Below, in pieces: positions 1 through 20,102 of a DNA stretch of 20,190 bases (its first letter is position 1; each line of letters opens with the position of its first letter). Source of the DNA: a virus. The stretch is from positions 1-20,190 of IMG/VR virus record IMGVR_UViG_3300035157_001043. One strand, given 5' to 3'. The notes under the pieces were generated by a model. The model made no database searches and was not told the origin of the DNA. It saw only the letters and a list, made by a program, of their open reading frames with translations. The position numbers and the translations under genes were made by a program.

Positions 1-3000
1 TAAGTTGGATCAGTTACTCTTGGATAAGCATGGTTAGAACCATTACTGTCTTGAGCACAAGTAAAGGTTATTGCATCAGCATCAAACTTAACTCTATCAC
101 CAGCAACTAATCCGTGTGAAGCAGATGTAATTCTTAAAATACCAGTTGTAGGTTCATAGTTAGCAGTTGAAGGAGTAAGACTTGAAGTACCAACAGAAGC
201 AACAGGTATTGCTTTTGCAGAGAACTCATCTTTATTAGTACGAGGATAAGTCTTATTAGCTTGATTGTTATCCATTGCACAAGTGAATGTCAATGAATTA
301 TCATCAATAGTAATACTATCATCGTCTGTTATATCATGTGATCCAATAGTTAATACTAAGTTACCAGTAGCAGGATCATATGTCGCAGCAGTTGGAGTAT
401 ATGGTTGATCAATAGTATCACCAAGAGACTTACCAATATCAACAGTAAATGTATTTGTTGTTGCCTTTCTTACTCTTAGAGCAGAAGTATAAGCAGGATC
501 TGTGACACGAGGATATGCATGATCTGTTCTCTTACCATCGATATGACATCTGAAGGTTAATGAACCAGCATCAAGTTTAATTGCATCACCCATCTTATGA
601 ATACCATTTGCCTTAGCAGATACAAATGTATGGGTATAGTCACCACCAGTACTTACTACAGATCTGGTAATACATCCAGTAGTAGCAGATACAAATGCGT
701 GTGTTGTAGTATTAGTTGGGGATGTTCCCTGTAAAGCATTAATAGTAAATGTATTTGTAGTTACAGCAGTAATCGGTACAAATCTACCACTTAGAGGGTC
801 AGAAGCACGAGGATAAGCATGGTTTGTAGCATTACTATCTTGTGCACAAGTAAATGTTAATCCACCATCAGCAATCTTAATATGCTCTCCAACCTTAAAT
901 CCATGATTATTAACAGTCAATACCATGTTACCAGTGGATGCTGTATATGAAACAGTTGATGGAGTATAAGTGTTATTTGCGTCTATAAATGTATGATCGT
1001 AGTTACCACCAACAATTAGACCACCAGTCTTAGCAGATACAAATGCGTGTGTTGTAGTATTAGAAGAAGTATTAACATTCAGGGTAATAGTTCCATCCTG
1101 AACCTTGATACCGTTAGATGTAGCACTTACATAAGTGTGTGCAAAATCACCAAATCCAGTAATACCAACATTAACATCAAATGTGTTAGTTGTGGAAGCA
1201 ACAATAGGAGTCCATTGGTTAGCAACTGGGTCGGTAGCACGAGGATAAGTATGGTTTGTTGCATTACTATCTCTTGTGCAAGTAAAGGTTAATGAATCAG
1301 CATCAAACTTAACTTGACTATTTGCCTTCATAACACCATTAGTTGTGGCAGATATGAACGCATGAGTTGATTGATCATTTGCAACACCAATATTAACATC
1401 GAATGTATTGGTTGTTACATTTTGAACAGTCAACCACTTGAGGTATGAAGGATCAGTAGCACGAGGATATGAATGTTGTGATTCATGATTATCCTTATTG
1501 CAACTGAATGTTAAAGCACCTTCTTTAATTAAAATTCTATCTCCATTAGTATATCCATGACTTGATTTTGTCAAAGTCAGAACACCTGTTGCTGGTACAT
1601 ATACAGCACCAGTTGGTGTAATCTCTGAAGCAGCAGTCAAACCATGACCATTGCTAGTGATTTGTAGAACACCTGTAGTAGGAGCATAAGTTGCACCTGT
1701 AGCAGTCTTATTGGAAGTACCAACAGCAGAGATCTCGATAGGAGCGTCATATGCTCTATCTCTCTTTTGCTTGATGCAGTTTGTAACAGCAGATACAAAT
1801 GCATGAGTAGAAGTATTAGTAGAAGGTATAGTCTGTAATACTTGTACTGTAAATGTGTTTGTAGTTACAGCAGAAACTTTCAACCACTTACCGCTAACTG
1901 GATCAGTTGATCTTGGGTAAGTATGGTTAGTTTGGTTATTATCTAACTGACATGTAAATGTAAGTGAATTATCATCTATCTTAATCCAATCACCAACTCT
2001 AACACCGTGAGAGTTAACTGTGAATACTAAGAGACCTGTTGTACCACTATATGTCGCAGTAGATGGTGTGAACTCATCTATAAATGGTCTTGGATAAGAG
2101 TGGTTAGATGCATTGCTATCTTCAGCACATGTGAATGTTAATGCTCTATCAACTAATCTAACTGTTTGACCAACGTTTAAATTATGTGTTCCAACTGTCA
2201 ATACTAAGTTACCATTTGCAGGAGTATATGCTGCATTGGTCATATCATGCTTCACAGTAGGTGACTTACCTACATCAATACTAATAGATCCATCTTGCTT
2301 AACAATACCATTAGGATATGCAGACTTAAATGTATGAGCAGACTTATCTGGAGATACACCAACATTAACAGTAAATGTCTTATCTGTTAGAGAATTAATT
2401 CTCAACCATCTTCTATAGAATGGATCTGTAGATCTTGGATAAGAATGATCAGTAGCGTTATTATCTTTCTCACATGTAAATGTTAGAGACTTCTCAGCAA
2501 TTCTGATCTTATCACCAACAGAATAACCGTGCTTATCAGATAGAACACTGTTATTTCTTGCACTTACGAATGTATGAGCATAGTCACCACCAGTCGTTAC
2601 AACTGCTCTTGTTACACAGTTAGCAGCAGCAGAAACGAAACTATGAGTTGTAGTATTTGTTGAAGGTACTACATCAAGAACTTGGATAGTGAATGTATTT
2701 GTAGTTACTGATTGAATATCAATAAACTTACCGCTAATTGGGTCAGTAGTTCTTGGATAGGTATGATTAGTAGCATTGTTATCCTTACCACATGTAAATG
2801 TTAATGAGTTGTCAGCAATCTTAATCTTCTGTCCAGCTAACATTCCATGACCTGCAACAGTAAATGCTAATAAACCGTTAGTTGGGTTGTAAGTAACAGA
2901 AGTTGGAGTTAATGTTCCTGCTTTTGGTACAAATGTATGAGTACCAGCAGTTGCATCATTAGCAGTTCCAACATTGACTGTAATTGATGTTGAGGTTACA

Positions 3001-4800
3001 GCAGTAATTGTTGTTGCAGCATCATATACAGGGTCAGTAGTACGAGGATATTTGTGCTCAGTAGCATTACTATCCTTAGTACATGTGAATGTTAAGGATG
3101 CAGGTTCAAATCTAACAGATGTACCAACAGTCAAACTATGACTACCAATAGTCATAACCATATCACCTGTAGTAGGAGTATAGGTGACTGCTGATGGGTT
3201 AAAGGATACTAAAGGTGATGCACCAACATTAACATCAAATGTATTAGTTGTTACATTTGCAATGTTTATAAAGTCACCACTTAGAGGATCAGATGATCTT
3301 GGATAAGGGTGAAGAGTAGCATTATCATCCATATCACAAGTAAATGTGATTGCACCATCTTCAATCTTAACCTTATCACCAAGAACCATTCCATGATTAG
3401 GAACAGTTAATGTCATTATACCTGTTCTTGCAACATATGAAGCAAGTGTAGGAGTAAGGTTAGTACCAGAAGTAATTGTTAAATCGCCTGTTGAAGGAGT
3501 ATAACTTGCATTAGTTGCTGTACTATGAACTCCATCACTTACAATCTCAACTGAATCATTATAGATTGGATCTGTTGTTCTTGGATAAGTCTTATACTCA
3601 GTAGTACCACCCATAGAGCACAAATACTTCAGAGAGTTATTTGCAATCTTAACATTGGTTCCTACTTCTAAACTATGATCTCCAATACCTAACTTCAACC
3701 AACCCGTCTCAGGATCATAAGTAGAGGATGTTGGAGTGAAACTCTTAATTGGTGATGGACCAACATTAACATTAAATGTATTAGTTGTTACACCAGAGAC
3801 TTCTAAGTATCCAGAACTTGCTTCGTCGGATATTCTGGGATAGGTGTGTTCAGACCTATCTTGGTCCATACTACACGTAAAAGTGAGTGAGTCATCAACA
3901 AGTTTGATTCTATCGCCATTTGAAAGTCCATGACTATTGCTCGTAATAGTTAATACACCAGTATTCGCTACGTATGCTGCATTAGACGCTGTAAGAGACG
4001 AGGCACCATTAATACCATGAGAAGACTTGGTTAATGTTAATTCACCTGTTGCAGGGTCATATACTGCTGCTGTAGGAGTAATGGAAGTAAGTGAATTTGT
4101 TGTGGAATCAGTGATAGTAGTATCAGTTGTCTGAGTTAAACCATGATCACCTTGAACTTCCCAAAGAGTGTTGGTTCCAATGTACTGAACCATTTCCTGA
4201 GTCTTCTTAAATGCCCAAAGACTTTCAGTAACTTCACTCTTAATTTCTTTTAATTGGATAGGATTAGCAGTTCTATCAACATAGAATGCAGATGCATCCC
4301 AGATATGACTGTTACTACCGTTGCGAATATCATCTACAACACTCTTCAATACATCAACAATATCATCAGCACAGTTAATAGATCCACCCTTAACAGTGAA
4401 GTTAGGGAATCTCTTCTTCATTAACCATACAACTTCTTGAGCAATAAAGTCTAAGTTTGCAAGTACTAAATCGCCAGCGTTGATATATCTCTGAGTATTC
4501 TTATTAAATCCATTGTTGGCAATACCAACATTAACAGTAAGAGTTGTCCCTGAAACCGCAGTGATAGCAAGGGTTGTGTCGTATGCAGGGTCAGTTACTC
4601 TTGGATATGTATGAGAGGTTTGATGATTATCCTTAGAACAAGTGAAGGATAACTTATTAGCACCAATCTTAAGAGTATCACTTGTTGTGAAACTATGAGA
4701 ACCAATAGTTAATACCAAGTCTCCTGTATTAGGATCATATGTTGCATCAGTTACATCCTTCTGTACACTATTAGCAGTTATTGTAATAGCATTAACTGCA
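1..4800 (-). repeat. C-terminal array of CxxDxxxxxHxYPRxxDP repeats (15 copies in window, continuing past the left edge)
   Basis: From residue about 4284 on, the protein repeats a unit of the form Y-x-P-x-T-G-x-L-x-L-T..SHG...GD.IKI...SLTFTC..D.N.T.H.YPR.TDP, followed by a strand such as TTNTFTVNVG. The YPR codons lie at 4599, 3834, 3579, 3297, 3042, 2751, 2433, 2088, 1911, 1461, 1239, 807, 507, 240 and 18 (left base of each). Spacing runs from 177 to 450 bases apart from the first gap of 765, always a multiple of three. A second, shorter element H(A/T)FVSA occurs about nine times between units. The copies diverge at protein and DNA level, so this is an old array with some newer duplications. 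The Cys/Asp/His core may bind metal or be structural (inference). Confidence 0.88.
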
Positions 4801-7800
4801 GTACTACCATTATAGATGTGCTTACCAGCAACATCTCTTACAGTTGCAAGAATAGCATCATTATTGAAGAATTCTCCTTCAGTAAATCCTTCTACACCAG
4901 ACCAATCATCAATATAATTAACACCATCATTACCATCACAGTGTAATAGTAGTTTTGTATTAGCATCACCTTGGAATATACCAGCAACAGGAGTAAATGC
5001 ACCAGTATAACGGTTAGTTGTAGAAACTCTTACCTCATCAACATGACCAACAAATCCATTAGCACCATTCCAATCAGCACCAATTCTTATTGGTTTAGCA
5101 ACATAGGTTGTACTGTCAGTACCAGTTCCAGCTTCAACACCATTAATGTAGATCTTACCAGTTGTGCTGGACTTAACATATGCAATATGAGTCCATGTAT
5201 TAGCAGAAATCGTTGTTGCACCTGAAGTTACAAGATCAGAATTATTAACATTTACACGAACTTGACCTGCCTCTAAGTATAATCTGAAGGCAACTTCATT
5301 AGCACTACTTGCTCTTGTATCGAATATATCAGCAGTACCACTTACTGAAGCAGTAGCAGGACGGATATACATCTCAATAGTAAATGCACCAGATCCAAAT
5401 GCTATTTCATCAGTAGATGCATTAACAATATAATCAGCAGCAGCAAATTCTAAAGATGCTGTTCCAAACTTCTTCTGTGCGGTATCGATAGCAGCAGCAT
5501 TTTCAAAGGTAAAGTCAAAGTAATCTTCACCATTTGCTTTACATCTACCAATCTTACCAAGATAAACAATATTACGTGCTTGATTAAATCCAATAACTTC
5601 AGCTTTAGTATCTCTGGTTCTAATTACTTGTCCAGTATTAAAGAATCCATCACCAATTCTATTAGTGAAACTTAATTTTCTAACTCTTCCATCTTCTCCA
5701 GCAATAAAATCACCATTACTATTACCATATTCAATCTTATAATTACGGATATTCTCATTTTCTACAAGAGTTCCTACTGCATTATCATAAGGAATAGTAT
5801 AGTTATTGATACGCTCATTAGAAGGGAATTTAGAATCAAATGCAGTAGCATTGTCTGTAAAGTCAACAATACTAATCTGAGACTTAGAAATATCGTCTAA
5901 TACAACGTTTGGATAAGTCTGAGAGGTAATTCTGTTGAATAGTAGACCAAAGAATGATGAACCTTCGGATATATTAACTTGACCAATAAATTCATTAGTT
6001 GTAGGATCTTGATATGCTGCAGTTGCAGTAACAGTAGCAACAACACCAGATGATGCACCAAGAATAACATCATTTAATTGAATATCAAATAAACCAGGAG
6101 TTGATTGATAAGTACCAGCAGTCTTACTTAGGGTTAATGTATTAGTAACGCTAATGTCTGTACCGTAAATTGGAGTATTCTCTTGTACAGATTGAGCAGT
6201 AGTACCAAGTTGTCCTCTGGTAACACCTATAGTTGTAGATGATGATCCATCAGTAATACTATCAACTCTGAATATTTCAGAACCAAACTGATAATTCTTA
6301 GTAGCAGTAAATGTTCCTGCTGGAACAGGACCAGGATCGCCAGTTAGAGGAACTACTTCAAATGATACAGTAGAAAGACCAATAGTATAACGAACCTTAG
6401 CTACTGGTGTTTCAGCACCAGATTCAAGGTTAATTTGTTCAACCTTTGCAGTATCTCCAGTTAAGTTAGTGATCTGCTCACCAAATGTGAATAGACCAAT
6501 ATTTGATACAGCAGTATTTGTTGCTAAGTTAGCAGAGAATCCAGTAGCACTAACAGTACATAATTCACCAACAATAAAGGTTCCTTCAGTAATATAACCA
6601 TTAATTGTAGTACCAACAACTGTTGTTACAGTTAACTTTGCACCAGATGATATACCAGTTAATACGTTACCTAATGATGGGTAAATACCACTCTGATTAG
6701 TAAATGTAAGTGCAACAGTAGATTTCTGAGAAATTGTTATGTTTGCATACTTAACACTTGCTGGAGGTTGTGGTGGTTCGGAGAATACAATAGAGTCTTG
6801 CTGAATACTAAATGCAGTCTTAGGATTCTGTACAACACCATTCAATACAATCATTAACTGGTTTGCGTTTGCAACAACATTACCACCATCAACAGTTAGA
6901 GGGAATGAGATTCTCTCACCGTCAAATAAGTTAGAAATATCATCGACACGTTGTACAACAGAGGTCAAAATGTTCTCTGAAGATGTCAGTCTCTTCTGCC
7001 TGAATAGAACTTCAGTATTATTGAAGTCAGAGTAAATTGGTTCAACAAGAGCAAAGTTTTGAATATTAGGAACGATTGATTCCTGAGCAAGTTCAACAGA
7101 CTTAGTTAACTGGAAGAATGTCTCTTTGTTAGGAACAAATCCATACTCATTAAGGTTTAATTCACCAAATACTTTAAATGATGCAGGGTGAACGTTCTTA
7201 ATAAGGATCTCTTTCCAATCGCTGATAGAAACAGCAGATTTAACAGCATAAGAGAAGTCCTGATAGTAGTAAGAGTCTTGAATCTTTTGAATAATTTCGG
7301 AAGGTTTACCAACATCATCGATAAACTGACCTGTTGTTTTGGTAATAGAACCAATTTCAAGAACACCTTTAGCGATCTTCAGATCACTGATAGTACCTGA
7401 AGACTTAGAAATAACACCAGTAACTTTTTCATTTTCTGTAAATGAACCAGTGTAATCAACAATCTTAAGAATTCGAGGTCCAACCTGCCAACCAGAGTTA
7501 GTAGAAACATAACCTTGAGCAGTAGCATTTTCAAGTGAATCACCTTGATATATCAATTCTCCTTCTAAGAAAGTAGAAGTGATAACGTTAGCAGTAGCAG
7601 CACCACCAAATGATTCAGTTAATACACTTTGACGACCTTCACCAGCGTTAACGAAGGAAAGAGCATCACCAAGAGCAGCGTTAGATGCAGTAATAGCAAG
7701 TTTTAACTGATCTGGTTCCAATGAGTTTGCTGTACCAGCAATAGCAAAGTAAGTAGTAGAAGCATTTAATCTACCAGTTGCACCAGCAGCAAGTGGGAAA

Positions 7801-10800
7801 TCAGCACCATCTCCAGTATCAGTTACAGTAACTGTTACTTCAGAACCATTTACAATACCATGAGGATAAGCAAATTGAAGTAATCCTAAGTCAAGGTTTA
7901 CAACATAGTTGAATGAAGACTTAAGATTAATAGTTGGTGTAGATGAATAACCAGCACCAGGATCTTTAACAAAGATTTGATCTAATCGACCATTCTTGAT
8001 AGTTGCTTCAGCAACAGCACCAGTACCACCACCACCTGTAATTACAACAGCAGGAGGTAAGGAATAACCAGAACCTGGGTCAGTAACTGTAATACTTGAA
8101 AGTATACTTGTAGATGTTAACTGAGCGTTAATCGGGAAGGTAATCTCAGGACGTAAAGTATAGTCATGAGGATAATCATATCCAAAGTTATTATTCTTAA
8201 GTTTCTTGATTTTTCCGACATTTGTACCCTTAGTAAAGATAGATGCCCCTGTACCAGCAGAAGGAATAACAACTACTAATTCAGCACCAGATCCAGTTAA
8301 ACCAGATCCAAGAATACCTGAAATTGAGTTAATATCAATAGTTGCAGTAGTATATCCTTTACCTGGATCAATAACATCAACTTTTTGAATTTGACCTGGT
8401 ATAGTAGTACCTTCATCATCAGTGCCATCAGCAACAGTAATAGAAACTAATCCACCTTCTCCATCACCAGCAATAGGTACGTTATTGTATTCTCCAACAG
8501 CATATTCAGTACCTGGAGCATTAATTTGAACTCTTTCAATCTTTCTTGTTGATACAATACCTGTAACAACTGGTAATTTAGTATAGAATCCACCAGAGTT
8601 AACAATACGGATATTATTAATAGAACCAACAGCTTTTAGTGAACTTGTACTATAACTTGTCCTACTTACATCTGCAGAACCTTCTGGCTCATTTTGTAGA
8701 GGGAATTTGAATATATCAGGTCCAGTAGTAATAGTCTGACCAGCAGTAGAACTAATTTGGAATGTACCCTTATATGGAGAATCTACAACATCTAAGTAAC
8801 TACCAGGAATTACAGGAGAATCATCCCCAGTTCTTGATGGGTCAAAGTAATATGAAATATTTGTAACAACGCTTTGATCAACTTTCAGTTTAACTGTAGG
8901 TGTAGGTTGTCCTTGACCAGTTACACCAGGAGTACCAATTCTTTCAATAGAGTTGAATGAATATTCCAACTTATAAAGGTTATCCTTAGCAAATGATAGG
9001 TTACCCCCAACCAATGAAGAGTGACTTAGGTCAAACAGATACTGGTGACCATAATACATCTTCAACACAGGAGACTTAACAAATATACTAACATTACCAG
9101 GAGTGCTTGTCTCAGGATCAGTTATTGCTGCTTGAGGTAATTTGTAAGTAAATTCAAGTGAACTTACAACAGTATCAACAGGGAATGCACCATCATACTC
9201 ATCATATACAACACCACCAGAAGTACGTTCTGGGTTACCATCAATATAAAGCATTTCACCTGCATTGAGGTAATGCTTAGTAGCAGTAATTACATAAACT
9301 TCATCACTATTAGCAACTGCAGTTACCTGAAGAATCTTAGTAAGGTTTGCAACTAAAGTAATCTTTAGAACACCAGTTAAATTAACTATTGTTGCTTGAG
9401 AATAATCAGCATTATAAGAAATATCACCTGAATTGATTGTAACAACAGATCCAACAATATATGGTGAAGAACCAGAAACTTCATCAATTCTTATAGAGTA
9501 ATCTGCATCAGCATATGGTTTGAATGTTGCAAATGTGTGTAGATTATTAGCTCCACCAACTTCTAAAGGATAACTTGAAAGAGGAATGATAAAGGTTCCA
9601 GGAGTTTGATTAACAACTTGTGCAAAAGTATATCCTATTATCTCATTAATATCATTAGGAATTGGTCCAACAATGTTATAAGTAGACTGCTCACTAAACT
9701 GAACTGTGCTTAATTGACCAGTATTAAGATCATCTGACCAAAGATTATTATTAACAGCAACATATATCTTATTGTTATCATTATCAACTTTAATGATATA
9801 ACCGCTATTTTTAAATGTAGATCCTGTATAAAGTTGTAATTTAGCACCAACTGTGAAATTAAATGCCTGATTAACAGTAAGAATCTGAATATTATCAATC
9901 TTAACAGTATCAGTAACTTTAAAGTAATATCTGTCTTTAACTACAGCAGATACCTTAAGTTTCTGTGAACCTGGAGAAGGAACAGTAGCAGTTCTTGAAC
10001 CCCAAATATCCTGAGTATAAGTTAGAGTCTCAGTATCTTGAGACATCGTAGTTGTTGTATCGTCAAAGTCAAGAGTCTGTAAACCTGCATCACCTAAACT
10101 ATATCCAGTAGCAGAAACAGTTATAGCAGAACCAGTAACAGGAGTTACAGCAGTTCTAACAAATCCTAATTTAGTATTAGTTCTTTCACTATAAGTTCCA
10201 ATTCTTCCAGATTCAGCATTCTTATCAACCTTAATACCCCAACCAACATAATCAATATTATCATAACGATTCAAGTAAGAAGTAAACCATGCATCATCTA
10301 CCCAATCAAATGTCTGACTATAACTTGCAGTTGGAGGTAATGTTGCAACATCAGTAGGAACTGTAGGAGTTACAAATCTATTCCTTAATTTAATGTTATC
10401 AATGTAGAATTGACCCTGCTTAGATTGAGCAAAATCAGTTGCTCCACTACCAAAACCAATTTGGTTACCAAAGTATATGTTTTTAGTACCAAGAGCAGTA
10501 TTTGATAATGTACCAGTAATAACTGCAATACCATTAATATATGCCTTGAACTCATTACCATTCTTAGTTAATGCTACAAACTGCCAAGAGTTATCAGCAT
10601 ACATGTTGGTCTGAGTTGATGACTGACCAGAACCGCTTATAAGTTGTGTTGTGTTATTAGTAATTACTAATTGTAACTCTCCACTACCATTATCATAACC
10701 TAACCATAGACCACCAGTAGCATCTCTTGCTCCACCAATACCACATAAGGTTTGAGCACCTTGAGATAAAGTCTGTGATTCACTACCATTCTTATAGATC

Positions 10801-13800
10801 ATGAACTCTAAAGTCCAATCACCAGCAAGAGTCTCTTTTAATGTAGTACCTGGAACACTTAAGTAAGAATTAACCCAAGTAGAATTAGAACCTGCAGGAT
10901 TATAACCATAGATCTTAGCAAGGTTACCTGTATAGGTTATTGCATTAGTAGCACCAACAGATGTTAAAACATGATGACCTGTTATATCAACTTGCTCATT
11001 ATTAGCAAAATCGTAGATAAATTCATTTCTATTCCACTGAGTTTGACCAAATACATGAACATCACCTGATTCATCAACATCAAGTGCATGTGCAGTTACA
11101 CCCTCAATATTATTAATATTGAAATTATTAGTTGTATGATTCTTAATCTTACCATCATAACCAATCTTAACTGTATCTACAGTTGTTTGAGTATTTGTAT
11201 TATTCTTTCTTGTAAATGCAACGTTTAAATCACCAAATAAATCAATTTCAGATGAAGTTGTTACATGAACTTCTCTACCTGGAGCAAGATAACGATAATT
11301 CCAGATTAAAGTACCATCAGTAGAATTAACCTTACCAACCCAGAAACTATCTCTAGTTGTATCATCACTCTTCATTCTGCAAGAAGCAGTAAGATAAATT
11401 TCCTTAAATTCATCAATACAAAGTGTAGAATCTAAGAATGAGTAAGTTGCATTACTAAATTCCTTAATCCATTGAATTTCAATAACACTTGTACCAATAG
11501 TTGCTTTACCTACACACTGATTAATATCCTGAGCAGTGTCTGTTGCTGATACTTCCATCGTGAAGTATACATCAGTACCATCAATGATTAAATCAGTAAT
11601 TTTCTCATTTCCAGTAGCAGAAGCTAACTTTCTCTTAACTGAGAAATTACCAGTAGTATCAATAGATGCAATAAATGCATCAAAAGGTGCAGCAGAGTTA
11701 GTATTAGTATAACCACCAATAATATAACGAGTATCTGAATATTTCTGAATTGCAGTTACATTATCAGAACGAGTTGCACCAGATATACCAGCATATGCTT
11801 TTTGGAAACTTAATGTTGCACTAAGTCCATTTTCTGCCTGAACATACTTACAAAGAATGATATCAGGGTTATATGCATCGAGTAGAGAACTATTGGGTTT
11901 ATTATTACCAACTACCCAAATATTATCTCCATCTACATACAATCTCTCAAATTCTACGTATTTTAGACCAGCTGTACTCTCTAAAGTTTTTTGCCACTCT
12001 TTAACACCTGTAGCAGATAACTTCGCTACAAATCCTACTGTATTACCATCAGCATCTAAAGTTTTACCACAAGTGAATACTTCTTTCTTAATATTAACCT
12101 TACAGTCATTAATCTTGACATAATTATTATTTTCAATCTTAGAAACATAATAATCAGCCTTCTTGTATATCTGAGGATGACTTAAAATAACACGAGGATT
12201 GGTAGTATACCCAGATCCAGAGTTAGTAATGTTAACAGTATCAATAGCACCAACAGAACTAACAACCGCTTGTAAAGCACCTTGGGTTCCGTCGCCATCG
12301 ATGATAATTGTTGGAGGAATTTCTTCATTATATCCAGATCCTGTCTGACTAATGACTATTTGCTCAATACCCTTGAATTGACGAACTTTAAATGTTTTGT
12401 TCGTGTTATCCATGATAGGTGTATAATCAATAAACACACTATCGCCAGCTATCAAATTATGAGGTACATCTGTCTTTAATGTACCGTAGTTACTTCCACT
12501 TACATTCTCAAAACCATAAGTTGAAACTGACTCACCTTTAATACGTGAAACACGAGCAGATACACCATCTCCATCAGTATCTGTATTATCAAATACCAGT
12601 CTATCATTGACCTGATAGTTAATACCTGGGTTTTCAACTGTAAATCCAGTTACAGAAGCATCTTCAAACTTAGTAATAGTCTCAACTTCAATATCAACCT
12701 TGGAGTCAAACTTAACTGTAGGGAAGTAATCGAATAGTTGTAATGGTGCTTCTTCAAACAACTGAGTAGGATTAGCAGTCTCCTCAGCATCAATTACACC
12801 ATCTCTATTAACGTCTTCTGGATCGAATAAGAGGATTTCTCCTGCTTCAGTAGTCAATGCATTAGTAGAAGCATTTGGAGTCCTTGTAACGTCAATATCA
12901 ACGTTCTCATAAGGGTCTCTGTAACGTACAACACCTGCAGGAATGTTCTGTTGTGTTGCAGCATCAACAAGGTTCCATTTATCAACAACTGAGTTGAAAC
13001 TTGGACCTAAAACATAAGGGAATACTGGGTTACCATCTTCTGTAGAATCAATAGTAACAAAATAACAATATCTACCATCAGTAAAGTCTGGTGTCTTACA
13101 GAAACGACCATTATACTGATCTAAATCACCTAAACCGAAGACATACTCATAATCTTCAACAAAGTTACCAGCAGCTTCTGAATTTAGTAAAGGACCAGCA
13201 GTTCTTGCTGGATATGGGTTAGTTGTTGCATCATAAACTAAATTTGTCTTCAATCTATAAGAAGTATTCAGTTTTGTAATAGAAGATGCTTGGTTAGTTG
13301 GGTCAGAGAAACCATAAGGACCATAAATTGGGTTACCATCAAACGCCCATCCAATGATAGGTGAGTGATTTAATTGAGTTTCTTGCTCCTTAATATTACC
13401 ACTAGCATTTTCAAATAAGTTATCACCAAGAATATATCTTAATTTCTGAGGGTTGGATAAGTGAGCATACTCACCACCATATTGGTTATTAAATCCTTCA
13501 AATACAGTACCTTTAGCAGAGTCAAATGTTGATGTTGCTTGAAGGTTATAAGTCCATTGGAATACATTAGGTGTAAATGTAGCACCTTGACCAACAGATG
13601 TTAGGTTAATAATCGTAGTACCTTGAACATAGTTAATACCCTTATTAACAATAGTGATACCAGTAACTCTACCAGCATTTTCACCATCAGTATCAATAGT
13701 AGCACGAGCAACAGCACCAAATCCAGCACCCTGAACAGAAACTTCAGGTGCGGTAGTATATCCAGATCCAGCAGAAATAATAGCGATAGAAATGATTCTA

Positions 13801-16800
13801 CCATTAGTTACAATTGCCTGAGCAACTGCACCACTACCAGAACTTAGTGTGACAGCAGGATTTGAAGTGTATGAAGCACCACCATCTGTTATAGCAATAC
13901 TTTGAATTGGACCACGAACAGATGCAGTACCTTCAGCACCAGTTCCTCCACCACCAACAATAGTAATTGAAGGCTGGGAAGTATATCCAGAACCACCTTG
14001 GTTGATCAGTATACTAGATACAACACCTTTAGTGATAATAGCAGTAGCTGCTGCTCCTGCTCCGCCACCACCTACAATAGAGACCAAAGGTGAGGAAGTA
14101 TACCCAGAACCCCCTGCAGTGACTGTGACTTCAGAGATAGAACCATCAACAGTTACATTTGCAGTTGCACCTGAACCGCTACCACCAGAAATAGTAATAG
14201 TTGGAGGTGAAGCAGCATCATATCCAGCACCAGCATTAGTGATGTTAATTCCAGTTATAGCACCGAAAGTTTTACTTAATTTTGACTTATATGCCCATAT
14301 TGATACACCATTAACCCAAGTACCAACAGGACCAGAATCAATAGTATTCTTAGTCGAAATTGTAGTAGGTACTTTAGGAAATCTGTTTAATTTACGTTGG
14401 TTTCCTGGAAGAAGAGCAGATCCTGGGAAAGGACCAATCTTATAGTTAGGAATACCTGTAGAAGCAACGTAAGTATGAGTAGTATCGAAGAATGAGTTTT
14501 GTACGTTAGTAGTATAAGAACCAATAGCATTTAAAACTGCACTATTATCTGACTTACCTTTATTAAGGTCAACAGATACAAGAATATTACCTTGAGGTAT
14601 TACAGTAGCAGGTTGGGGAAGTTGATACTGGAAAGTATACTCGGAATCCCTTGATGTGACTAAGAAAGTTCCGTTATAGATTATTGGGTTAGCACCATAT
14701 ACAGTTACCTGATCTCCAACTAATAATCCATGAGGATTAGCACAAGTAAGAGTTGCAGATTGGTCATTAACACCACCAAATGTTACAGTATTAACTGATA
14801 TTAATTTTTTAACGTTATACAACCAAGTTGTAAGATCTGAAGTCGTACCAGTACCACCTAACTTAGAAACTGTTAATTTATCTCCAGGTAAGTAGTAAGA
14901 TCCAGTATCTGTTAGATTAGTTTGCTGTGCATCAACAATACCAACAACATTCATTACAACTTCTTGTAATGTACCCTTATTCAGGTAAACTTTGAAGTTT
15001 GAAGTAACTTGTGTAGCAGAATCCCAATCTTCAACAACACCATTTACAGAACGAGTACATTCGATAAACTGGTTAAGTGATTTTTCCTTATATTGTACAA
15101 CTTCTGTCGTAGTACCCGAACCAATAACAAACTCACCGTTCCTTTCTGGCCAACCAATGGTAGAGTCAACCGTAATAATAGAGTCGGTTGCACTCAATGG
15201 TTCAGCAAGTTTTGTCTTATATGGAACAGTAAATGAACCAGTAATAGTCTCTTCAGACAATACAAGTTCAAAAATTTCTACTTCAGACGTTTTAATTGAA
15301 ATATAATTTTCTACAAGAGCACTCGCTGCTTTAATATTAGGGTCTGATATATCCTCTTCTTGTACTAATAAAGCATCTTTAATATCAACAGAATTACCAG
15401 AAACCTTAGTAGCACGAAGAATAGTATCAATAGACCAAGTAGCATCAGATGGTTTGATAATCTGATCTTTTGGATAAGATATACTTACAGTTTCACCATA
15501 AAGTAACTTAAAGAGATAAGCAATACTAAAAGATGTACCCTTTGAAGAGTAGAAATCTTTAATAGTTTTAATTGCTGTACGAACGTCAATTTTCTTATAA
15601 TCGAGTTCAGGTACATCAGGAAGGAACTGTTCTGTATATTTGTCTAAAAGTCTCTTTATAAACAGTTGGTCTAAGCACTTAACTGGAGTATTAACAGTAG
15701 CTGCAGCAGCAGTAGTTGCACTAGAGAAAACTGCATTACCATCTTCTGTATATGAAGTAATTCCTGAAGCAGCACGAGCACATCCTTCAAATTGTGCTTT
15801 AGTGTATTCTTTTCCTTCCTGTGTTACAGTAAAACCAGTAATTTCCTTTAAACCAATCTCAGCAGATGCTTCTGCAGCAGGTGGAGTCTGAATAACGATA
15901 GTTGGAGGTGCAGCAGCAGTATAACCAGTTCCAAATGCAGTTATATTAATATCAGTGATTCTACCATTGAATATTGCAGCAACAGCAGTTGCTCCAGTAC
16001 CACCTATTGAATTTCCTTGTGCATCTACTCTTCCATCAACAATGTATACAGATGGAATATCCTCATATCCGCTACCACCATCTAAAAGTTCAATATTAAT
16101 TACACGACCATCACCGTCAACAGACGTTTGAAGTATTTGAGCACCAACTGGATCAACAATAGCAACCCTTGGAACTGTTGTATATCCTTGCCCTGCATTT
16201 AATACAGTAATTGAAGCAAGAGTACCGTCTGCAGCAAGGTTTGCACGTAATGATGCTTTAATAGGGTTAGTTCCTGTTGGTTCATCGACATATATGACTG
16301 GGGCAGTAGTATAACCAAATCCTACATTAGTAATGGTTGGAGCAGCTGCAAAAGAACCATTAGTAATGGTTGGAGGATCAATTGTAGCACCTCCAGGCTG
16401 TCTAAATGTCAATCTTGGTGTAAATGTATATCCACTACCTGAATTAAGTATTTCAAGTCCACTTACAGCACCATTAGTAACAGTTGCTTTAAGTTTTGCC
16501 TGTGTTGCACCTGGTTTAGTTGGTGATTGTACTTGAACTACTGGTGGGTTAGTGTCACTATAACCTTTACCACCATCTAATAGAGAAACTGATTTAACAC
16601 CATTAACTAATGCATTAGCTGAAGCACCACTACCTAATACAGAACTAATAGTTACTTTAGGAGGATACTCAAATCTATATTCTGATCCATTAGTATCAGT
16701 CTCAATGCTGGTAAGAGTACCAGTATCACTAATACGTGCATATCCAATAGCACCAGCTCCAAATGAAGGTACAGGTGCCTCAATAGCATATAATGATAAG

Positions 16801-17652: not shown

Positions 17653-19683
17653 TTAGAAACAACTATCTGTATTCGTTGTGCCAGTGTTTGTCAGGTTCGG
17701 AACTTCAACCGTAGTTGGAGTCTGATTGAAAACTGTTGGTGTCAAACTATTTAGAGGTATAGTACCAGGTGGAGTTGTTCCAATTGGAGAAACCGTAACC
17801 TCAGGATTCACAATATTAATAACAGTTCCTGGTGTAGATGCTGGAATGGTAGAATTGTTTGAAGGTATAAAGAGCACGGGGATTTGTAAATCTATTGGTA
17901 AGAGAGTAGTATCAATCACCGTTCCTACACCAGTAACAGTATCAGTTAACGTTAAGTTAGTGATAGAAGGTACATTAGCACCAGCACCTATTATATTAAC
18001 TGCTCCGAAGCATATTTCGCCTGTAGCATAGTTAACTGATCCAGCACTATCATTCGTATATACTTTCTTATTACCAGTGTTATAGAAGGTTCTTAACTTA
18101 CCAAATCCATCGTCTTCAAATTGCTGATCGATACCTGGTCTATCAGCAGTCCTAAAGGTTCCTGATAATACGACAGGTTCCTTCTTACAAGAGTCACTAG
18201 CACCACTATTACTTGGAGCACTATCATATAATTGACCACCAGTTGAAACACAATACGTGTTTGTTGAGTTAGTACCTGGTTTGATATACTTCAGAATTGT
18301 AGTTTGTAGTGAAACGTCACTTATACACTTGTCGGAAAGCACAATTGCCTTCTCAAAGTTCTGACTTCTAAAGGTAGAGTTAAAGTTATTAATCTGTGTC
18401 TGAGAAGCCCAATTAGTGATAGCATCATTAATATGGGTTTTTATATCAGATGTACTAGAACCGCAACCAGTATCATACTGTGCAAAGATCTTATTGTAGA
18501 TATAGATCTGATCTGGATCAACGACAACAGGGTCAATTGATGCCATAGCGTATTTTCTTAAATCTGCTGCTACTTCTTTCTTAGTTTGGTCATTAAGTAA
18601 TGATCCAGTCTTAGTTTTGATTGCAACGAAAACTTTACCGTAAATTGGAGGATTTAAAGCATCTCCACCATATGCAACAACGGAATCAGCATTAGAATAA
18701 ACTTTTTTAGTAATAACAGCATAATCTTGTGCTGTTACTGCTCTATACTGTGCAGAGTAGTATCTTGGAGCATTATATTTAATAGATTCAGGTGATTCTG
18801 CAACAGATCCCAGTTGTGACCTGTCTTTTGTTGTAAGATCTACTGAATTTGGTCCATAAGCAACTCCTAAATTATCCCTCATAGTACCAACGAAGGAGAA
18901 TCCAGTTACCTCATTTGCTTCAATACCAGAAGTTACAAGATACTCAAGATCAACAACCTCACCATCTTTTAGTGCTCTACCAGCAGTATCATCACCAAAC
19001 CTTATCTCATACCTCATATCCTCGCCTTCAGAGAGGAAATAAACCCTTGTGGTAGCAGTTAGGTTGGTAACAGTATCAACCTTGTTATAGAGGTCAGAAG
19101 CAGTCGCAGACTCGTTTGCTTTTACCCTTACAGTTAAAGTATCAATATCAGCGTCTTCAGAAGGAACTTTATAATTTTGAGTTGCAAAAGTATTAACAAC
19201 GTAGTTAAATCTGACAATAGTTCCTTCACGAATCATCAAATTGTCAAATTCGGCAAGTCCAGTGGTAGTATTAACAACTACAGTAGTATCTTGAAGAATA
19301 TTCCAAATAAAATTACCACCAGTAGCAACTGCACCCTTAGATAGAGTTATACTACTTGGATATGCACCATTTGTCTTAACAGTCTGTACTTCAAGTTTAA
19401 GACATGCTTTTGATGAAGCAATTGACTTAGGAACATAATTTAACAGTTTAGCAATATTAACAATATTGTCTCTAACAGTGGCAGAAGGCAAAAATGCCTC
19501 ATTCATTGCCATATTAGCATTAAATGCGGTATAATATGTGTTATACGCTAAAGTATCAATCAAATACGTCAGAGCAGAACCTTCAAAGTCATAATCAGTG
19601 AACTCTGATCTGGTTCTAAGATAAGACTTAATCGATGCTTTTACATCATCAAAATCTAATGCTGTTAAATTATTCGGTTGCAT
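17653..19683 (-). CDS. gp6: gp6-like baseplate wedge protein
   Basis: This 676-residue protein is near the 660 residues of T4 gp6, the wedge component that forms the continuous ring of the baseplate and drives the shape change at sheath contraction. The N-terminus (about 10-90) has the usual block FEGSALTYLIDTLAYNTYY followed by AFLPSATVRDNIVNIA. The baseplate-J-like core includes RFGDDTAGRALKDGE (228-242), the RYYSAQYRAVTAQDY segment (307-321) and PPIYGKVFVAIK (345-356). A later part carries GSVNYATGEICFG (548-560). The last 70 or so residues are Pro/Thr/Asn-rich low complexity and end in DSCF, which looks like a flexible tail. The ATG overlaps the gene 25 stop (TAATG), with AAGAGA about ten bases upstream as a modest ribosome site. 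Only four bases separate its stop from the giant gene. Assignment is confident from motifs, length and the neighbouring gp25. Confidence 0.94.
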   Translation of the reverse strand: MQPNNLTALDFDDVKASIKSYLRTRSEFTDYDFEGSALTYLIDTLAYNTYYTAFNANMAMNEAFLPSATVRDNIVNIAKLLNYVPKSIASSKACLKLEVQTVKTNGAYPSSITLSKGAVATGGNFIWNILQDTTVVVNTTTGLAEFDNLMIREGTIVRFNYVVNTFATQNYKVPSEDADIDTLTVRVKANESATASDLYNKVDTVTNLTATTRVYFLSEGEDMRYEIRFGDDTAGRALKDGEVVDLEYLVTSGIEANEVTGFSFVGTMRDNLGVAYGPNSVDLTTKDRSQLGSVAESPESIKYNAPRYYSAQYRAVTAQDYAVITKKVYSNADSVVAYGGDALNPPIYGKVFVAIKTKTGSLLNDQTKKEVAADLRKYAMASIDPVVVDPDQIYIYNKIFAQYDTGCGSSTSDIKTHINDAITNWASQTQINNFNSTFRSQNFEKAIVLSDKCISDVSLQTTILKYIKPGTNSTNTYCVSTGGQLYDSAPSNSGASDSCKKEPVVLSGTFRTADRPGIDQQFEDDGFGKLRTFYNTGNKKVYTNDSAGSVNYATGEICFGAVNIIGAGANVPSITNLTLTDTVTGVGTVIDTTLLPIDLQIPVLFIPSNNSTIPASTPGTVINIVNPEVTVSPIGTTPPGTIPLNSLTPTVFNQTPTTVEVPNLTNTGTTNTDSCF

Positions 19684-20102
19684 TATTCAGGTCTCTTTAA
19701 GACAAAGGAAATATTCTCAACAACGGGTTGCCCAACAATTTGGTATTCAACATCTATTCCAATAGCATTATCATCCCAAATAGGTTGTACGGATACTTCC
19801 GTGAGGGCAACTCTAGGTTCATACTGATTAATAGTATTTATGACTTCTTCTTGGATTTGATCAGCCACAAAGGGATCTAATGGTTCAAATAGTAATGTAT
19901 ATACATTAGATCCAATTAAAGGTTGGAAAGGTTTCTCTCCAGGAGTAGTTAATATTAAATTCTTTATTGATTGTTTAATTGCATTATCATTCTTTACCAC
20001 ATTAACATCATCCGTGAAAGGATTTTTTCCCATCATCACGGCAATATCCTTAAAAGCACGAGACCTTTTCTGTTCGTTCCTTCCAATCTTCTTTAATGCC
20101 AT
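19683..20102 (-). CDS. gp25: gp25-like baseplate wedge protein (sheath-initiator family)
   Basis: This 139-residue protein is close in length to T4 gp25 (132 residues). The family, shared with TssE/GpW-type proteins of contractile injection systems, sits in the inner baseplate wedge and starts sheath assembly. The conserved EPR motif is present at residues 95-97, inside YEPRV. Before it lie a helical stretch NAIKQSIKNLILT (40-52), the phrase PGEKPF (54-59) and a LLFEPLDPF loop (70-78), all in the order usual for the family. The C-terminal half has short beta strands ending in FVLKRPE. The start is supported by TAAGG five bases upstream and by the one-base overlap with the upstream stop. The stop overlaps the gene 6 ATG, so translation of 25 and 6 is probably coupled. 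Family assignment is secure. Confidence 0.95.
   Translation of the reverse strand: MALKKIGRNEQKRSRAFKDIAVMMGKNPFTDDVNVVKNDNAIKQSIKNLILTTPGEKPFQPLIGSNVYTLLFEPLDPFVADQIQEEVINTINQYEPRVALTEVSVQPIWDDNAIGIDVEYQIVGQPVVENISFVLKRPE

Follow-up and report, generated by a model that had tools for sequence, protein, structure and literature searches.

The stretch of DNA analyzed here, hereafter the window, is a complete IMG/VR virus record of 20,190 bases (IMGVR_UViG_3300035157_001043), the minus strand of which encodes gp25- and gp6-type baseplate wedge proteins and a giant open reading frame (ORF) ending in an array of repeated units marked by a Cys/Asp/His/Tyr-Pro-Arg (C/D/H/YPR) motif. The host of this array was a giant structural protein of a T4-like marine cyanophage (Kyanoviridae), the gene for which lies directly after gp6. 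The pattern C-x10-YPR was found 15 times within the last 1600 residues of the giant ORF and never in 1000 residue shuffles of the same protein.

The repeat array and its gene context

The preliminary description of the window had reported a 15-copy tandem array keeping Cys, Asp and His constant at fixed spacing. The array proved to be real and its coordinates held, but the constancy did not extend to all residues: Cys and YPR were present in 15 of 15 motifs, Asp in 14, His in 13 (with Lys in the other two) and the following DP in 12. The pattern C..D.....H.YPR thereby matched 13 motifs, C-x10-YPR..DP matched 12, and all features stood together in 11. Likewise, the spacing was fixed inside the motif but variable between units, successive Cys residues being 59–255 residues apart. 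The motif Cys codons ran from base 4640 down to base 59, and the units, listed below with the residue number of their Cys, covered positions 3–4778.

4500–4778, minus strand: unit 1, Cys 4337
3738–4010, minus strand: unit 2, Cys 4592
3486–3761, minus strand: unit 3, Cys 4677, with Asp replaced by Gly and His by Lys
3207–3476, minus strand: unit 4, Cys 4771, part of the three-unit model
2946–3224, minus strand: unit 5, Cys 4856, part of the three-unit model
2604–2924, minus strand: unit 6, Cys 4953, including the last strand; modeled alone
2334–2612, minus strand: unit 7, Cys 5059
2073–2270, minus strand: unit 8, Cys 5174, truncated after YPR
1812–2081, minus strand: unit 9, Cys 5233
1362–1634, minus strand: unit 10, Cys 5383
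1146–1382, minus strand: unit 11, Cys 5457, N-terminal part shortened
708–986, minus strand: unit 12, Cys 5601
411–668, minus strand: unit 13, Cys 5701
171–419, minus strand: unit 14, Cys 5790, with His replaced by Lys
3–188, minus strand: unit 15, Cys 5864, incomplete at the contig end

Two half-units consisting of the pre-hairpin part only were also seen directly before full units, at 4008–4100 (residues 4517–4547) and 1620–1721 (residues 5310–5343). Tandem Repeats Finder returned no rows for the window DNA because the copies are too diverged at the DNA level. The array ran past the end of the window: a near-identical contig (G001), which differed at 48 nucleotides over the 19,403 window bases compared, holds the entire giant gene (G001 17429–41245), encoding 7938 amino acids (aa) with 19 motifs.

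The other features of the locus, with Pfam bit scores against the cutoff of each family, were as follows.

19683–20102, minus strand: gp25-type baseplate wedge protein (PF04965, 57.2 bits, cutoff 27.2)
17653–19683, minus strand: gp6-type baseplate wedge protein (PF21379, 62.5 bits, cutoff 27)
3–17648, minus strand: giant ORF, 5882 aa, uninterrupted by a stop and running off the contig end (phrog_701)
15459–15632, minus strand: baseplate-wedge stretch of the giant protein, residues 673–730 (PF23786, 36.3 bits, cutoff 27)
13044–13586, minus strand: YHYH domain of the giant protein, residues 1355–1535 (PF14240, 109 bits, cutoff 25)
10437–10871, minus strand: LamG/concanavalin-like domain of the giant protein, residues 2260–2404 (PF13385, 29 bits, cutoff 27.6)

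The gp6 of the window shared 74% identity with gp6 of cyanophages P-RSM4 and S-TIM4. At 7938 aa, the giant protein is very long for a structural component of a phage; its counterparts in the 13 named relatives described below have about 5200–7300 aa. By eye, a second LamG-like stretch was noticed at about 5000–5500 (residues about 4050–4215), just ahead of the array and outside the part scanned with Pfam, as were many copies of a GSGY(T)xxPxVxI repeat at about 13600–16800, in the N-terminal part of the giant protein.

Predicted fold of the unit and conservation of its hairpin

The units comprise about 90–107 residues, and structure prediction of one and of three units, as proposed in the preliminary description, was carried out. 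The single-unit model (unit 6) reached a predicted local distance difference test score (pLDDT) of 95.9 and a predicted template modeling score (pTM) of 0.86, and the three-unit model a mean pLDDT of 88.1 and a pTM of 0.64. The predicted unit was nearly all beta, and each unit was predicted with confidence to form a small beta-barrel. In the model of unit 6, the motif appears as a hairpin: a strand (residues 41–45) whose last residue is Cys45, then a helix of three residues that includes Asp48, then a strand (53–56) with His54 and Tyr56, followed by PR..DP.

In a Foldseek search of the PDB with the single unit, ranks 1–7 were occupied by endosialidase chains of phi92 and K1F (probability 1.00, TM 0.48–0.53, root-mean-square deviation (rmsd) 3.8–5.7, E 0.026–0.064), followed by E1. 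A second aligner placed two E1 chains first (Z 8.1 and 7.9), then phi92 (7.7), the T1 tail tube protein (7.5) and K1F/NF (6.8–7.0), the E1 and endosialidase alignments covering 73–82 of the 107 residues; the best E1 alignment (Z 8.1) had an rmsd of 2.6 over 76 residues. One E1 entry is titled first catalytic cysteine half-domain and was taken as FCCH. In a viral structure library, 25 models were retrieved at E ≤0.001, every named one being of cyanophage origin; endosialidases came next at E 0.007 and worse. The fibronectin-like top matches of the three-unit model, having an rmsd of about 20 over the whole chain, were set aside for the single-unit search. A profile comparison of 120 windows of the giant protein put three HxL-x2-G-D/E places on top, at a probability of at most 29%, and further barrel modules elsewhere in the protein are not claimed on that score.

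At the sequence level, the array gave no Pfam or NCBIfam match above cutoff; Urease_alpha fell just short (22.6 against 23 bits, 27 residues covered). End_beta_barrel (PF12195) was weakly matched by 12 of 40 relatives (best E 1.5e-4) and by 4 of 63 in a second set, and E1_FCCH (PF16190) by 8 of 40 (best E 2.6e-6). One E1_FCCH match, located in contig L082 (E 1.2e-5), covered profile positions 3–25 of 70, corresponding to the TG..HG..GD part, and stopped just before the hairpin. A further PDB search yielded nothing below E 0.039, and the whole-chain match to an iota-carbonic anhydrase (7c5x, E 5.6e-6) was rejected as the sum of three repeats with E values of 5, 55 and 26 of their own. Since the weak sequence matches and the fold matches pointed to the same two families, the unit is likely related to the FCCH/endosialidase barrel and carries a hairpin in addition, although its sequence does not place it in either Pfam family. 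The C/D/H/YPR hairpin, which follows an H-G-x3-G-D strand, would then be an insertion relative to those barrels.

The preliminary description had regarded the unit as possibly undescribed and had recognized no named family for it. This stood insofar as the Pfam and NCBIfam scans were empty, and a limited search of open papers found the repeat not named as a domain; it did not stand for the sequences as such, which already occur in PHROGs (phrog_701, 5342, 18802 and 1276) and in 375 of 50,697 phage records. The PHROG 701 match had an E value of 0 over residues 3–2215 and 2–1999 of two non-array pieces and 6e-240 for the array piece. Judged by sequence, the protein family is therefore known, and it is the repeat as a domain that corresponds to no Pfam or NCBIfam entry above cutoff.

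To count residues, the 1598 of 1797 profile hits that had the core were used, giving 588 non-redundant units after clustering at 75%. Conservation was concentrated in the one hairpin: Cys and Pro were found in all 588 units, Tyr in 583, Arg in 577, Asp in 528, the second Asp in 525 (45 gaps) and His in 434, with Lys at the His position in 128 (22%), each of which kept the Cys. A further set, A4, had been picked by a pattern requiring H, C, H/K/Q, YPR and the last H, and the conservation of these residues in A4 was not used as evidence. The bias toward Cys was avoided with a hairpin-free profile built on the part before the hairpin, which left 497 of 1018 distinct barrels after 75% clustering. 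Cys was present in 494 of these, 477 having YP, 13 a short hairpin and 4 another form, and the three barrels lacking Cys also lacked the hairpin. The 13 short-hairpin barrels kept the Cys while having neither Asp at +3 nor YPR; by eye, their His belongs to the last barrel strand. A short unit form, SFSCxYGxxxHT(F/Y), was also noted (L103, L025, L081, L075 and others), which keeps the Cys and is devoid of Asp, YPR and, by eye, the following strands.

These counts bear on the proposal, made in the preliminary description, that Cys, Asp and His might form a shared metal site or knot. Binding of iron or zinc in each unit by Cys, Asp and His, perhaps with Tyr, would agree with the high frequencies of three residues close in sequence, and also with the association of Asp and His: among the 477 YP barrels, 331 had both, 82 Asp only, 16 His only and 48 neither (odds ratio 12.1, Fisher p 7e-18, sequence relatedness ignored), while Cys hardly varied. 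The 13 short hairpins keep a His together with the Cys as well, but the pattern that sorted them required His 6–10 residues after Cys, and they thus say nothing against a Cys-His pair. On the other side, Lys took the place of His in over a fifth of the units without loss of Cys, the same short hairpins retained Cys without Asp or YPR, and all three residues occurred together in only 71% of the 588 units while Cys was found in 100%. In addition, column pairs 45-56, 45-58, 47-53 and 42-58 covary, which points to a register of the hairpin that would place His across from Leu41 (numbering of the single-unit model), about two rows away from Cys45. We therefore disfavor the metal-site reading; a metal ion held in every unit is very improbable, and a shared metal or knot site appears unlikely from the residue counts. 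The joint loss of Asp and His suggests that Asp and His/Lys are partners of each other, whereas Cys follows the barrel and hairpin. Cys and YPR..DP would accordingly act as structural determinants of the hairpin and barrel, and Asp and His (or Lys) as an exchangeable side-chain pair near the hairpin turn.

The retention of Cys in nearly all barrels of the hairpin-free set, and the presence of exactly one Cys in the aligned columns of 1441 of 1598 units, could also be accounted for by thiol chemistry, in which the near-invariant Cys, once assembly is complete, would be joined covalently (by a disulfide, a thioether or the like) to a partner in its own unit or chain or in another one. Most units, however, have no partner Cys, no partner residue was identified, and 40 of 1623 YPR triplets had no Cys in the preceding 14 residues, the examples shown being mostly unrelated or devoid of a preceding strand. 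Phage tails are moreover assembled in a reducing cytoplasm, which also counts against such a link, and we consider it improbable. An equally improbable variant would make the thiol functional: up to about 30 one-Cys barrels, each with a YPR..DP latch, would constitute a long extensible baseplate arm for chemically triggered multivalent attachment. If this were true, the units could open, react or cross-link upon host contact or seawater oxidation.

Distribution and variability of the array

A tblastn search with the array matched the 375 phage records mentioned above, the organism names of which start with Synechococcus, Cyanophage, Prochlorococcus or Marine, and one with residues 1–1000 of the giant protein matched 479 records, 458 of them Synechococcus, Cyanophage or Prochlorococcus; both counts include many near-identical strains. 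Many records had several match places, and the units thus sit in other genes too, as in S-WAM2, where the gene that contains them is annotated short tail fiber protein. The sole match in genome_contigs was a contig of a 'Euryarchaeota' metagenome-assembled genome (L038, PBPH01000042.1) with 29 units. An archaeal origin was rejected, since the same giant protein, C-terminal part included, is encoded on this contig; it is probably a cyanophage contig put in the wrong bin.

In all 13 named Kyanoviridae examined, the gene immediately before the giant one was gp6 or was annotated baseplate wedge subunit; in 8 of them, the gene after it was gp9 or was annotated baseplate wedge tail fiber connector. 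The giant gene itself was annotated as structural or virion structural protein, as gp7 or as baseplate wedge initiator. Three phages were left out of this comparison: metaG-MbCM1, whose gene is split into three ORFs; Syn30, whose record is cut; and S-WAM2, in which another gene holds the units. The split in metaG-MbCM1 (L010, 6732–26498), where the giant is annotated as three separate ORFs, may be real or result from assembly errors. Profile units per giant protein numbered 13 in P-SSM7 and P-SSM3, 11 in P-SSM2, 7 in S-TIM4, 3 in S-MbCM6, 2 in S-IOM18 and S-SSM5, 1 in S-RIM8, S-RIM50 and Syn9, and 0 in S-ShM2, S-WAM1 and S-SZBM1; G001 gave 21 profile hits for its 19 motifs. Meanwhile, 12 of the 13 proteins aligned with that of G001 at both ends, at 45–74% identity on the N-terminal side (best long piece) and 43–65% on the C-terminal side, the exception being P-SSM2, which aligned in a short piece only. 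With 0–13 units between ends conserved in these 12, the array amounts to an insert of variable size within a conserved giant protein. Among 92 ORFs of the IMG/VR type longer than 2000 aa, a set that was gathered by the unit search and counts the window itself, fragments of a single record and duplicated contigs, the number of units was 1–32, with a median of 19.

The giant protein is evidently part of the virion, given that its homolog S-SZBM1_208 (6619 aa, 724 kDa) was represented by 71 peptides in mass spectrometry of purified virions (PMC9146016).

The array was under purifying selection, its dN/dS (ratio of nonsynonymous to synonymous substitution rates) being 0.16 and 0.13 against two close contigs, similar to the region preceding it. 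A third, distant contig (L021) gave 0.38 with dS near saturation (1.48) and was not used. The units of a close relative (L019) matched those of the window one by one and in order and those of divergent arrays did not, which fits unit gain and loss. Compared with six array rows of at least 18 units (L019 excluded; two of the rows, L023 and L053, being one contig), 5–11 of the 15 window units resembled the other array more closely than the rest of the window array.

These findings also suit a pure spacer, in which the barrels would bind nothing and the copy number would only set the reach of a baseplate arm. The copy number from 0 to more than 20 between ends conserved in 12 of 13 relatives, the drift of the units outside the hairpin together with the mixed affinities just described, and the low dN/dS against close relatives all speak for it. 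It is opposed by the concentration of conservation in one hairpin, which goes beyond what a bare spacer needs, and by YHYH and LamG in the same protein, which suggest surface contact. The spacer reading remains strong, if in our estimate tentative.

Proposed function and comparison with known systems

The explanation that we hold, with limited confidence, to be the probable one is that the array forms the variable middle of the giant post-gp6 structural protein, its units being barrels of a baseplate arm that makes many weak contacts with the host. Extending out of the baseplate, the chain of barrels would form an arm whose length varies and whose contacts with the host surface would most likely involve glycans. 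Glycans are proposed because the endosialidase barrel is a known sugar-binding site and because YHYH and LamG lie in the same protein; sugar binding by the units themselves may be inferred by this analogy. Of the alternatives offered in the preliminary description, an adhesin-like role is plausible. In the K1F endosialidase, the barrel is described as one of three polysialic acid sites and a host-discrimination hotspot (PMC12632334). In a host-adaptation experiment with S-TIM4, which carries the giant protein (ORF_101) with 6–7 units, 6 of 8 mutated particle genes of ascribed function encoded tail fibers or baseplate (PMC6224464).

Several observations weigh against this explanation. The dN/dS of the array was low and not raised as rapid receptor adaptation might give; the variable regions of S-TIM4 were not preferentially mutated (PMC6224464), and the K1F barrel was otherwise largely permissive to mutation (PMC12632334). 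The units are not tied to the giant-gene position, and the zero-unit orthologs in the isolates S-ShM2, S-WAM1 and S-SZBM1 make the array dispensable in general. As S-SZBM1_208 has no array units, presence of the array itself in virions is presumed by analogy with a unit-free protein. As for the fold, no PDB match was obtained at a Foldseek E of 0.001 (best 0.026), and a Z near 8 can reflect a common arrangement. The window unit matched no Pfam family at E 0.1, including PF12195 and PF16190, and the E1_FCCH match in L082 was under its curated cutoff (25.7 against 29.5 bits). A different family, Cthe_2159, was matched by 13 of 40 and 5 of 63 relatives, as many as End_beta_barrel; it scored 23.4 against 25.8 bits over one short stretch where located, and was set aside on cutoff alone. 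Retention of Cys in 494 of 497 barrels exceeds what a buried residue usually shows. Finally, a much smaller downstream gene is annotated baseplate wedge initiator in S-ShM2 (L120, 38610–40331) and S-SZBM1 (L116, 14260–16107), and this separate gene speaks against naming the giant protein gp7.

T4-like cyanophages are common at sea and their receptor-binding parts are poorly assigned. The array provides a candidate contact arm of variable copy number in a very large phage structural protein, with domain limits and a likely fold family, and a misleading metal-site reading has been removed. A puzzle is left by the Cys, which has no known partner and whose near-invariance across the barrels is unexplained.

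Among known systems, the giant protein invites comparison with T4 gp7, as it occupies the gp7 position. The gene order gp25-gp6-giant matches gp25-gp6-gp7, the baseplate wedge profile PF23786 is matched above cutoff, and several orthologs are annotated gp7 or baseplate wedge initiator, but T4 gp7 has 1032 aa against 7938 aa. In a PDB sequence search with the giant protein, T4 gp7 supplied the top two of three matches at chance level (E 0.28 and 0.71), an unrelated third following at 0.89. T4 gp7 is stated in one report to be absent from these phages, with VrlC in its place (PMC7029224).

The four PHROGs match the array directly, but are large families named 'virion structural protein', 'tail fiber protein' or nothing, and carry no description at the level of the repeat. 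The E1 FCCH domain (PF16190) may resemble the unit in its predicted fold and, in L082, matches the sequence of the HG-GD part below the curated cutoff, whereas no such hairpin was seen in it; it belongs to a cellular enzyme, and no shared function is implied. The endosialidase tailspike barrel (PF12195; K1F, phi92) is a small barrel, as is predicted for the unit (Z 6.8–7.7 over 77–82 residues), and belongs to a tail protein in contact with the host surface, as the giant protein may be. There, one such domain is present per enzyme chain, whereas here 19 tandem motifs stand in a giant structural protein, each with the added C/D/H/YPR hairpin.

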